Assembly: GCA_018304465.1 (NCBI GenBank) | Contig: JAGVWC010000010.1 | Span: 191,211-255,210 of the forward strand | Origin: Candidatus Iainarchaeum sp. | GTDB taxonomy: Archaea > Iainarchaeota > Iainarchaeia > Iainarchaeales > JAGVWC01 | Reading direction: 5' to 3' | Length of the DNA stretch: 64,000 bases | In this document: positions 36,993-42,477 of the stretch, piece after piece | Layout of the letters: each line of letters opens with the position of its first letter | Numbering within the stretch: the stretch's first letter is position 1 | Position numbers and translations under genes: made by a program | The notes under the pieces: model-generated | Seen by the model: the letters and a program-made list of their open reading frames with translations, nothing else | The model's database searches: none | What the model was told of the DNA's origin: nothing

Positions 36993-37475
36993 TCAGCGGC
37001 TTGGACCCTCGAAATCAAACGAATAATCCAAAACGGAGTTGTCGTCTTTGGAAAACACCACGGTTCCCGACACCGTTTGTCCCTCGAAAATCAACGGCAG
37101 CCACAACGGATCCGCCGGCCACATGGATTCGAACGGCAACCGATCCAATGGAAACCACTGCGGCACCATTTCTTCGGATTCCGTCGGAGTCCCCGTCCAA
37201 GCAAACGCCACGAACACTTCAACACGCGTCGCAAACTCCGGACGATCCTTCGTCAAAAACACCACTTCACCCGCGGGAACCAGCGACTCCAAAGCCACCA
37301 CCAAACTGCTTTCTTCGAACACTTCCCGCACCGCGGCTTTAACGGTTGATTCGCCCGGATTCAATTTTCCGCCAAACCCGTTCCACTTTCCCCGGCCAAA
37401 ACCGCGTTTCTTTAAACCCAACAATACCTGTCGATGATCCACGTCCACGACGAACACCAAGGTCTTGACTTCCAT
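36993..37475 (-). CDS. NUDIX hydrolase (MTH1-like)
   Basis: GFGGKLNPGESTVKAAVREVFEESSL. Confidence 0.88.
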   Translation of the reverse strand: MEVKTLVFVVDVDHRQVLLGLKKRGFGRGKWNGFGGKLNPGESTVKAAVREVFEESSLVVALESLVPAGEVVFLTKDRPEFATRVEVFVAFAWTGTPTESEEMVPQWFPLDRLPFESMWPADPLWLPLIFEGQTVSGTVVFSKDDNSVLDYSFDFEGPSR

Positions 37476-37592
37476 ACCAAACCAGCAGAACCAAGCATTT
37501 AAAAACAAATTTCGTTATTTGGCTACAAAAACACCAATTTCAAATGACAATTGACGAAGTTTTTTAAATCGTGATCGTCATAAATACGTCCT

Positions 37593-38295: not shown

Positions 38296-38742
38296 TCAGG
38301 GAACCCGATCGCAATCGTGTTTTTGGTTGAATTTTCCCAAAATAAAATCCTTGGCGGACTGCACCGCGCCAAACGTGAACAAGGATTCGTTTTCCATTTC
38401 GCTTAACGAAAACCATTTCGCTTCTTTGATTTCTTCCGGCGGAATCCGCAATTCCCCTGAAACGATTTCGGCTTCAAACACGTACTTGACAATCAAACGG
38501 CCGTTTTCAACAAACCGAAACGTTCCCGCCAACCGGCCCAACGATACCACGAAACCCGTTTCTTCCAATGTTTCGCGCACCGCCGCGTCCTCCAAAGACT
38601 CGTTTTTTTCCACGTGTCCCCCCGGATTGTTCCACAACCCCGCAGGAGTACCCACCACGGCGTTCACGAACAAAAAACGATTGTTTTTCACGACCAATGT
38701 CGCCCCCACTTCTTTTGCCTGCAAAAACCCACCGCCTTCCAC
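38296..38742 (-). CDS. NUDIX hydrolase
   Basis: NPGGHVEKNESLEDAAVRETLEETGF. Confidence 0.88.
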   Translation of the reverse strand: MEGGGFLQAKEVGATLVVKNNRFLFVNAVVGTPAGLWNNPGGHVEKNESLEDAAVRETLEETGFVVSLGRLAGTFRFVENGRLIVKYVFEAEIVSGELRIPPEEIKEAKWFSLSEMENESLFTFGAVQSAKDFILGKFNQKHDCDRVP

Positions 38743-39754: not shown

Positions 39755-40522
39755 TTATTGTTTCTTCTTGGACGTCGAAACCACCGATTTCGGTGATGCA
39801 AACCGAAGGTCTTTTCCGGAACTCGTTTTCCAAAGCGATTTGAAATAGGCCCTATAATTCTCGGCGACCGCCTTGTTGCGAAGGATGACTGTCGTTATGG
39901 GATCCCCCCACATCATAGTCGCTGTGGTATCCCCATATACCCAAATTACGCTGGGGGCAAAAAGGCTTTTGGGAAGGGGTAACATGTGGGATCGCGTCGG
40001 ATGTGTTCCCGGATCCTGTCCTTCGGGAAAAATTAAGTATTCGTGAAGATTGTTGCGCTTGAGGCAAAGAAAATATTTCTGGAGGTGAATCGGTGCGACA
40101 GTCTGGAAATCCGTCATGTCACCGAATAAAAAAGCCGTCTCCGGATGCGCCATGTAATCGTTAAAAGCGTGGCGAACTCCGTCTTTTCCCTTATAAATTT
40201 CAATCGCAAAACTGGCGGGTTTTTTTCCAGCGATCTTCTGCAACTGAGGCACCAACCGCGACAGCTCTTCCTGCTGATCAGACAAGTCCGTTACCAGTTT
40301 CTCAGGATCGGATGCCAAGAACTGCTTGACGGACCCTTCGGTGAAAAAGCTGACATAGCCGCGATCTACCAGCTTGTTAAGCAGCGAATAGCACAGGGTG
40401 CGGTCCACTTGGCTTTGCTCGGAAATACGCGAAACAGTCGCAGGGCCCAAGCGCAGCGCCGACAGATACACTGCAACTTCTTTTGGAGAAAGACCCATCC
40501 GTTCCAATATCTGTGTGTCCAC
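39755..40522 (-). CDS. TrmB-family transcriptional regulator
   Basis: MGLSPKEVAVYLSALRLGPATVSRISEQSQVDRTLCYSLLNKLVDRGYVS. Confidence 0.85.
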   Translation of the reverse strand: MDTQILERMGLSPKEVAVYLSALRLGPATVSRISEQSQVDRTLCYSLLNKLVDRGYVSFFTEGSVKQFLASDPEKLVTDLSDQQEELSRLVPQLQKIAGKKPASFAIEIYKGKDGVRHAFNDYMAHPETAFLFGDMTDFQTVAPIHLQKYFLCLKRNNLHEYLIFPEGQDPGTHPTRSHMLPLPKSLFAPSVIWVYGDTTATMMWGDPITTVILRNKAVAENYRAYFKSLWKTSSGKDLRFASPKSVVSTSKKKQ

Positions 40523-40620: not shown

Positions 40621-40839
40621 ATGAAACAATATGTCATTACCCCGCACCAGCCATCCGAAAGAAAAATTCAAGCCCATCCGATCCTCGTAACTCACGACAT
40701 CGAAGAAGCGATTTATCTCGCGGACCGCAGTATCGTGCTCAAAAACCATCCGATGATCGTGAGCGCTGTCCTAGCCAATCCTCTTCCAAAACCGCGCACT
40801 CCCGAACGGAAAACAAAACAGGAATTCCGAAAACTGTGA
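40621..40839 (+). pseudogene. ABC-transporter ATPase C-terminal fragment
   Basis: ILVTHDIEEAIYLADRSIVLKNHPMIVSAVLANPLPKPR: H-loop region only, no Walker A/B or signature. Confidence 0.7.
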
Positions 40840-40895: not shown

Positions 40896-41465
40896 ATGAA
40901 TGAAAAAAGCAAATGGGAGAACGGCAAACCAAAGATCGCGATCATTCTCGGAAGCCGCAAAGACGAACCGACAGTCGTCGCATCCAAATTATTTCACATA
41001 CTCAAAAACGCTGGAATCGGATACGAATACTCCATCATTTCCTCCGATCGAAATCCGGAAGAGTTACGAACGTATTGCAAAAGCCTGGACACGGAAATAA
41101 TCGCCGTTATCGCGGTTGCAGGCCTCATTCCCAATCTTCCGATTGTTACAAAGTCCTGGGCACCCCACATACCGGTTATTTCGGTTCCCCTTACGGGAGA
41201 CGGATACACCCCGAATGACACCCTGCTTGCAGCCGCGAGTACCCCTGGAGAACGACCCATTATTGTCAGTGGAATCGGAAAAAACGGCCTTGAAAAAGCA
41301 GGGTACCTCGCCGTGGAAATCGCCGGCGTAAAACACGCCCACATTCGAAAAAAATATGCTTCTTTGCAGGAAATTAAAAGTGCCGAAATCAAAACAACGC
41401 ATCCCCGGCCAAAATCAAAAAAAGGAAGTGAAACAAATGGATCCGCGAGACCTCATTTCAGTTAA
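40896..41465 (+). CDS. PurE-like (AIR carboxylase family) protein
   Basis: IAIILGSRKDEPTVVASKLFHILKNAGIGYEYSIISSDRNPEEL...VISVPLTGDGYTPNDTLLAAASTPGERPIIVSGIGKNGLEKAGYLAVEI. Confidence 0.75.
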   Translation: MNEKSKWENGKPKIAIILGSRKDEPTVVASKLFHILKNAGIGYEYSIISSDRNPEELRTYCKSLDTEIIAVIAVAGLIPNLPIVTKSWAPHIPVISVPLTGDGYTPNDTLLAAASTPGERPIIVSGIGKNGLEKAGYLAVEIAGVKHAHIRKKYASLQEIKSAEIKTTHPRPKSKKGSETNGSARPHFS

Positions 41466-42477
41466 CGTAAACGTTTTCGAAGGGGACATTCTTCTGTGCG
41501 ACTCGTACGTGTCGGATGTAGCGCCAGAATTCGTGAAAAAATTATCGACCCATAAAAAAACGTATTCTTTCACTCCAGAACTGACGCATAGCGACATATT
41601 GGGATTCAAGCTGTGCACCATCTTTCGACTGGGCCGAATTAGTCGATTGACGGTTTTTATCAAATCCGGCTCTCCGCATTCGTTGCAGATTCCGCTGATT
41701 GTCCAAGAAGCCGCCGACGATACCGGATTCGATCGATCGAAAATCGAATACTTTGTCTGGGAAAAAGGCGAAATGATCCCTGTTTCTAACGAAGCAATCC
41801 GCAAAGCCCGGCACTTACACGAAATCGAGCGACTGCTTGCCTTTGAACGACTGCAAAAAACGGTCGAAATCCTGCGAAAAGAATGCCGCAATGACCAGCA
41901 GGAAACCTTCGAAACCATCCTGGAACACTTTGTTGAAGAAACCAACGAGCTAAAAGAAGGGATCAAAAACAAAGATACGGCCAATACTCAGGAAGAACTC
42001 GGCGACATCTTGTTCAATGTTTTCTTATTCGCCAAAATCGCGCAAGAAGAAAACCAATTCGATATGGAAAAACTGCTGGATACGGTGAATGAAAAAATGG
42101 TGAAACGGCACGATCAAATATTTCCAAACAGAAACGTAGTGATATTGGTTTCGCCCATTCATGGAAAAGGAGTCTTTGCATTGCAGGACATCAAGGCCGG
42201 AACGATCGCTGACAAATGGCAGGCGTACGCACAAAACCAAAACCCACGCACAGATAAAACCGTTGACCAGTTCGTGAATCATTCGTGCAAACCCAACGCC
42301 TACGCCAAAGACTCCGTCGACATCGCACTCCGCGACATTAAAGCAGGCGAAGAAATCACCTGTGACTACACCAAAGAAAACGGAATACACCCTAAGTTCA
42401 AGTGCAATTGCCAATGCAAAAATTGCAGAGGAGCGATTTACACCAATTTTCAAAGAATCGGACCCGAAAAGGATTGA
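41437..42477 (+). CDS. Three-part fusion: unknown N-terminal domain, MazG-like NTP pyrophosphohydrolase, SET domain
   Basis: MazG: EETNELKEGI...EELGDILFNVFLFAKIAQEE; SET: GKGVFALQDIKAG...FVNHSCKPNAY...GEEITCDYT...CNCQCKNCRG. Confidence 0.85.
   Translation: MDPRDLISVNVNVFEGDILLCDSYVSDVAPEFVKKLSTHKKTYSFTPELTHSDILGFKLCTIFRLGRISRLTVFIKSGSPHSLQIPLIVQEAADDTGFDRSKIEYFVWEKGEMIPVSNEAIRKARHLHEIERLLAFERLQKTVEILRKECRNDQQETFETILEHFVEETNELKEGIKNKDTANTQEELGDILFNVFLFAKIAQEENQFDMEKLLDTVNEKMVKRHDQIFPNRNVVILVSPIHGKGVFALQDIKAGTIADKWQAYAQNQNPRTDKTVDQFVNHSCKPNAYAKDSVDIALRDIKAGEEITCDYTKENGIHPKFKCNCQCKNCRGAIYTNFQRIGPEKD

Follow-up and report, generated by a model that had tools for sequence, protein, structure and literature searches.

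What does an archaeal gene pair do in which a PurE-like protein overlaps a second protein that joins a domain of no recognised family (X), a MazG domain and a SET methyltransferase domain? A reading made from the sequence alone (the sequence-only reading) had described this pair, had called the combination of MazG with SET very unusual, and had offered nucleotide-linked signalling or defence as its role. The pair lies in the window, the whole 64,000-nucleotide stretch analysed here, from a Candidatus Iainarchaeum genome (G000; 1.25 Mb, 15 contigs, 92% complete).

Gene layout and the MazG-SET fusion

Both open reading frames were found where the sequence-only reading had placed them, with the PurE-like gene (PurE') running into the fusion gene:

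39755-40522, minus strand: TrmB-type regulator, divergent to PurE' (Pfam TrmB, 3.3e-13)
40896-41465, plus strand: PurE', a PurE/AIRC-fold protein of 189 aa (Pfam AIRC)
41424-41431, plus strand: SD-like GGAAGTGA, 5 nt upstream of the fusion-gene ATG (read directly)
41437-42477, plus strand: X-MazG-SET fusion protein, 346 aa, in a single open frame
41437-41465, plus strand: 29 nt shared by the 3' end of PurE' and the 5' end of the fusion gene
41437-41835, plus strand: domain X, residues 1-133, predicted to alternate beta and alpha
41905-42123, plus strand: MazG domain, residues 157-229 (Pfam MazG, PF03819)
42133-42438, plus strand: SET domain and post-SET Cys cluster, residues 233-334 (Pfam SET, PF00856)
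42217-42273, plus strand: shortened SET insert, residues about 261-279 (alignment, spacing and models)

The start at 41437 was favoured for the fusion gene because the SD-like sequence precedes it and the X domains of relatives agree with it; the ATG at 41356, which gives a longer ORF, is a less likely start. Housekeeping genes surround the pair (NMD3, NUDIX, beta-CASP nuclease and TyrRS-like). Two NUDIX genes, at 36993-37508 and 38296-38742, lie 2-4 kb from the pair. Just 5' of PurE', a 72-aa ORF at 40621-40839 on the plus strand matched only the end of SsuB/CmpD/NrtD-type ABC ATPases (1.9e-5), which suggests that it is a truncated ATPase remnant and points to a deletion at this locus.

The proposed three-part protein was confirmed, MazG and SET by profile searches. 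The MazG domain matched the Pfam MazG profile at 1.8e-19 (70.2 bits; curated cut-off 22) and the MazG structures 3cra/3crc in the PDB at 4e-18, and the SET domain matched the Pfam SET profile at 7.6e-12 (46 bits; curated cut-off 22.4); judged by profile score, both matches are beyond chance at these E-values. All of the motifs pointed out by the sequence-only reading were present. The MazG metal motif was intact (EETNE at 167 and EELGD at 186), and the SET domain carried HGKGVFA at 242, NHSC at 281, GEEIT at 304 and the post-SET cysteines (CNCQCKNC) at 323. The fusion MazG was 38-40% identical to the stand-alone MazG proteins of relatives, with EExxE and ExxGD in both. In contrast to the usual MazG, which ends in a C-terminal tail, the fusion has a single MazG domain with X in front of it and SET in place of the tail.

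The judgement that this combination is very unusual was borne out. No second MazG-SET fusion was found in 58 relatives or then in 93 genomes of the phylum, where the MazG and SET genes are separate, nor among the best 80 SET relatives from 85,488 species genomes, nor in plasmids and viral contigs. Within about 4 kb of the best 80 SET loci there was no MazG gene, the sole MazG hit (L132) being the match itself. The fusion MazG query detected no further MazG in G000, and a search of the literature on MazG with SET in archaea found no paper. The exact joint is thus known from one genome. Since the fusion MazG is missing the usual tail and the SET part begins at the normal SET start, the two genes appear to have been cleanly joined rather than linked by a frame error. 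An assembly or sequencing artefact is highly improbable: the fusion does occur in one assembly only and its SET is shortened, but the frame is open throughout on a 307-kb contig, the MazG end meets the SET start at homologous borders, and the same domains are linked in other genomes.

The SET domain matched MLL1 SET chains both by sequence and by fold, and a fold search with the full fusion model returned SET structures only, among the matches listed. Aligned with 20 sister SETs, the fusion SET kept all of the SAM and catalytic motifs (GxG, NHSCxPN and GEExxxxY), and it was 43-50% identical (median 47%) over aligned residues to stand-alone sisters. With the small stand-alone SETs of DPANN archaea and CPR bacteria it has GKGVFA, FVNHSC, GEEIT and the post-SET cysteines in common; unlike them, the fusion SET sits behind MazG and is without the SET-I helices and hairpin. 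Compared with its stand-alone sisters it lacked 18-21 residues in the stretch from the WD region to FVNHSC, a feature that the sequence-only reading did not mention. In the AlphaFold2 model of a sister SET (pLDDT 90), the segment missing from the fusion formed two helices and a beta hairpin (SET-I and the hairpin after it, on the substrate side); residues 263-274 of the fusion model had pLDDT below 50, and the same region was folded in the sister. The possibility that the fusion SET is dead was weakened by the good conservation of its remaining residues and by two viral SETs with N-terminal joined regions, whose inserts are equally short (26 and 32 residues, counted in the same way); because of these viral proteins, a mini-SET need not be dead. 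G000 has two more stand-alone SET genes, at C15:42611-43012 (L019) and C15:146990-147340 (L001), one of which is 46% identical to the fused SET.

The altered PurE-like protein and its companion domain X

PurE' has the fold and length of PurE, the AIR carboxylase (PF00731, TIGR01162), matching Pfam AIRC at 3.6e-23 (82 bits) and PDB 1o4v at 1.6e-17. Against the purE equivalog TIGR01162 it scored 74.3 bits, under the cut-off of 149.6. The altered loop that had been picked out earlier was confirmed, with AVAGLIPNLP occupying the expected position of GGAAHLPG, and a second change came to light at residues 49-54, which read SSDRNP where SAHRTP is expected. In PurE of the E. coli type, the SAHRTP histidine is catalytic. 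Relatives of PurE' were found in two further genomes, G573 (70% identical to the window protein) and G159 (63%), with identities of 63-70% across the three. Both SSDRNP and VAGL(I/V)PNLP (VAGLIPNLP in the window) were invariant in all three proteins, so that the SAHRTP motif and the HLPG His are both altered in 3 of 3 members. In contrast, the ordinary AIRCs of these two genomes carry SAHRTP or SAHKSP together with AAHLPG: G573 has a separate two-domain AIRC adjoining PurC, and G159 has a second AIRC with SAHKSP and AAHLPG. On these sequence features PurE' is a distinct clade, and the strict conservation of its altered site argues for a new activity rather than decay.

No PurC (SAICAR_synt) was found in the 92%-complete G000, whereas it was present in 14 of 14 control genomes. 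A second AIRC was likewise not found in G000, leaving PurE' as its sole AIRC. Because G573 and G159 hold a separate ordinary AIRC and G000 has no PurC, PurE' is very unlikely to be a purine-pathway (CAIR-making) enzyme. That PurE' might be an ordinary AIR carboxylase or N5-CAIR mutase, with an unrelated neighbour, is consistent with its membership of the AIRC family. We rejected this explanation, which is barely credible, on the motifs altered in all three proteins, the equivalog score, the missing PurC and the separate AIRCs of G573 and G159. PurE' is instead a candidate PurE-fold enzyme of novel activity, in organisms that do not synthesise purines. No match to PurE' came from 160 genomes of another phylum, in a search that had no positive control.

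Domain X of the fusion had no match in Pfam, NCBIfam or PHROG, with nothing above chance in Pfam, and nothing significant among PDB sequences. An X-only query retrieved a strong relative in G159 (2.7e-22) and a profile search a further one in G573; a third relative is in G223. The X domains of G159 and G573 are 76% identical to each other, compared to 35-36% between the window X and either, and no such gap was seen for PurE'. By this difference, the fused protein evolves fast. Three residues that the X domains of G159, G573 and G223 share are absent from the window X: the YxxC cysteine, the aspartate in front of SPH (DGSPH/DKSPH) and the QxH histidine. In the X model, built from the window sequence only, segments 60-125 had pLDDT of about 70-84. 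A remote match (19-25 bits) was observed between X and the C-terminal part of two-cluster ferredoxins (L163 1507-2346 and L165 1510-2337), and X may have arisen from a domain that carries cysteines and perhaps binds metal. The domain has no name, and its pairing with PurE' is directly testable.

A sparse module in related genomes

In G573 and G159, X and PurE' form one polypeptide behind an NDT-like domain (resembling nucleoside 2-deoxyribosyltransferase) and without MazG, unlike in the window. The G573 locus (L160) has the order TrmB on the minus strand, SET on the plus strand, then NDT-like–X–PurE' (434 aa); the G159 locus (L159) has TrmB on the minus strand, then NDT-like–X–PurE' (435 aa). 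The SET gene of G573 encodes a stand-alone protein of the same subfamily as the fused SET, and overlaps the following gene by 8 nt (ATGTATAA). The divergent TrmB-type genes beside the two modules are:

L159 8526-9239, minus strand: TrmB-type gene beside the G159 module
L160 8011-8829, minus strand: TrmB-type gene beside the G573 module

Three genomes thus showed PurE' associated with X; each had a TrmB neighbour, two had SET and two the NDT-like domain. Since G159 holds another TrmB of similar likeness, it is the position of the TrmB gene that counts and not its likeness. The N-terminal domain of the G573 and G159 proteins scored under the cut-off against Pfam (0.016 and 0.061-0.087), making NDT-like a weak assignment, and it is absent from the window ORFs.

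The explanation that we favour, at a little short of an even chance, is that the two genes represent a rearranged version of a sparse archaeal nucleotide-processing module, whose substrate is a nucleotide distinct from the usual purine intermediate, with the SET methyltransferase as an accessory partner. In this module, MazG would split a (d)NTP to the monophosphate, and this nucleotide, or a compound derived from it, would then be the substrate of PurE' with X; in the relatives, the NDT-like domain would cut the glycosidic bond instead. SET would methylate a protein, possibly a member of the module, so coupling methylation to nucleotide turnover. Distant relatives that keep some of these pieces adjacent hint at such a tie of nucleotide chemistry to the methylation of proteins, one not described previously. 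The fusion probably arose recently and in this lineage alone, with drift of X and trimming of SET.

The same features could have arisen by evolutionary accident, a deletion having joined MazG and a trimmed SET beside a PurE'-X remnant, so that MazG and perhaps PurE' work while X and SET are decaying passengers. The presence of the fusion in a single genome, the fast X without the Cys, Asp and His common to the other X proteins, the disordered and shortened part of SET, and the truncated SsuB/CmpD-type ABC ATPase end as a sign of deletion are all consistent with this. However, outside its gap the SET domain is as conserved as its sisters and keeps its SAM, NHSC, GEExxxxY and Cys motifs, the inserts of the two viral SETs, which also follow N-terminal regions, are just as short, and the link between SET and PurE' is seen independently in G573. 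We hold an accident to be possible but rather unlikely.

SET domains joined to nucleotide hydrolases

A survey of SET architecture retrieved 101 distinct SET ORFs. Among these, the cellular SETs with real extra domains were the window protein and two other kinds:

L047 1534-2919 (equal to L059 2744-4138): SET-HD-NUDIX fusion, 462-465 aa, from Ca. Iainarchaeum-type genomes (STB_123)
L102 3953-4888: SET-NUDIX fusion from Candidatus Harrisonbacteria

Both belong to the same SET subfamily as the window protein and join it to nucleotide-hydrolase-type domains, but their partners are not homologous to those in the window, their SET is N-terminal, and PurE' and X are missing. At L087, HD, SET and NUDIX are adjacent separate genes. 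Viral SETs with extra regions were also among the 101, namely L146 (DHH-like and SET) and L142 (an N-terminal region without an assigned domain); the DHH match of L146, at 3e-5, was just below the cut-off, and its SET is more distant from that of the window. The neighbours of most SET relatives are unrelated, and no clear excess of NUDIX genes over expectation was seen near SET. Because the pattern of SET with hydrolases was spotted post hoc and most SET neighbours are unrelated, only the fusions and G573 support a tie between SET and nucleotides. A broader proposal is that this small archaeal and CPR SET family cooperates with nucleotide hydrolases (MazG, NUDIX, HD, DHH-like and NDT-like/PurE'), methylation being set by or acting on nucleotide turnover, and that the window holds the PurE', X, MazG and SET version, with a PurE' of new specificity. 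We consider this rather unlikely as a whole.

Of the two roles suggested by the sequence-only reading, the nucleotide-linked one gained support from the SET overlap in G573 and from SET fused to HD and NUDIX, to NUDIX, and to a DHH-like domain, and a signalling role for the pair is possible. Defence fared worse. A defence or stress system would clear nucleotides under attack and use methylation as a switch; known conflict systems that deplete nucleotides contain MazG, NDT-like, HD and NUDIX domains, and the sparse distribution of the module would fit. However, no module protein matched a PADLOC profile, viral contigs held no relative of X or PurE', and the neighbours are housekeeping genes, making this explanation improbable.

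To our knowledge, SET methyltransferases outside eukaryotes are mostly without a known role, and their repeated tie to nucleotide-hydrolysing domains is a concrete, testable hint of one. A cupin gene (L102 3667-4011) overlaps the SET-NUDIX gene of L102 from upstream, and the viral contigs L146, L155 and L156 encode proteins longer than 720 aa that combine a DHH-like domain with a mini-SET.
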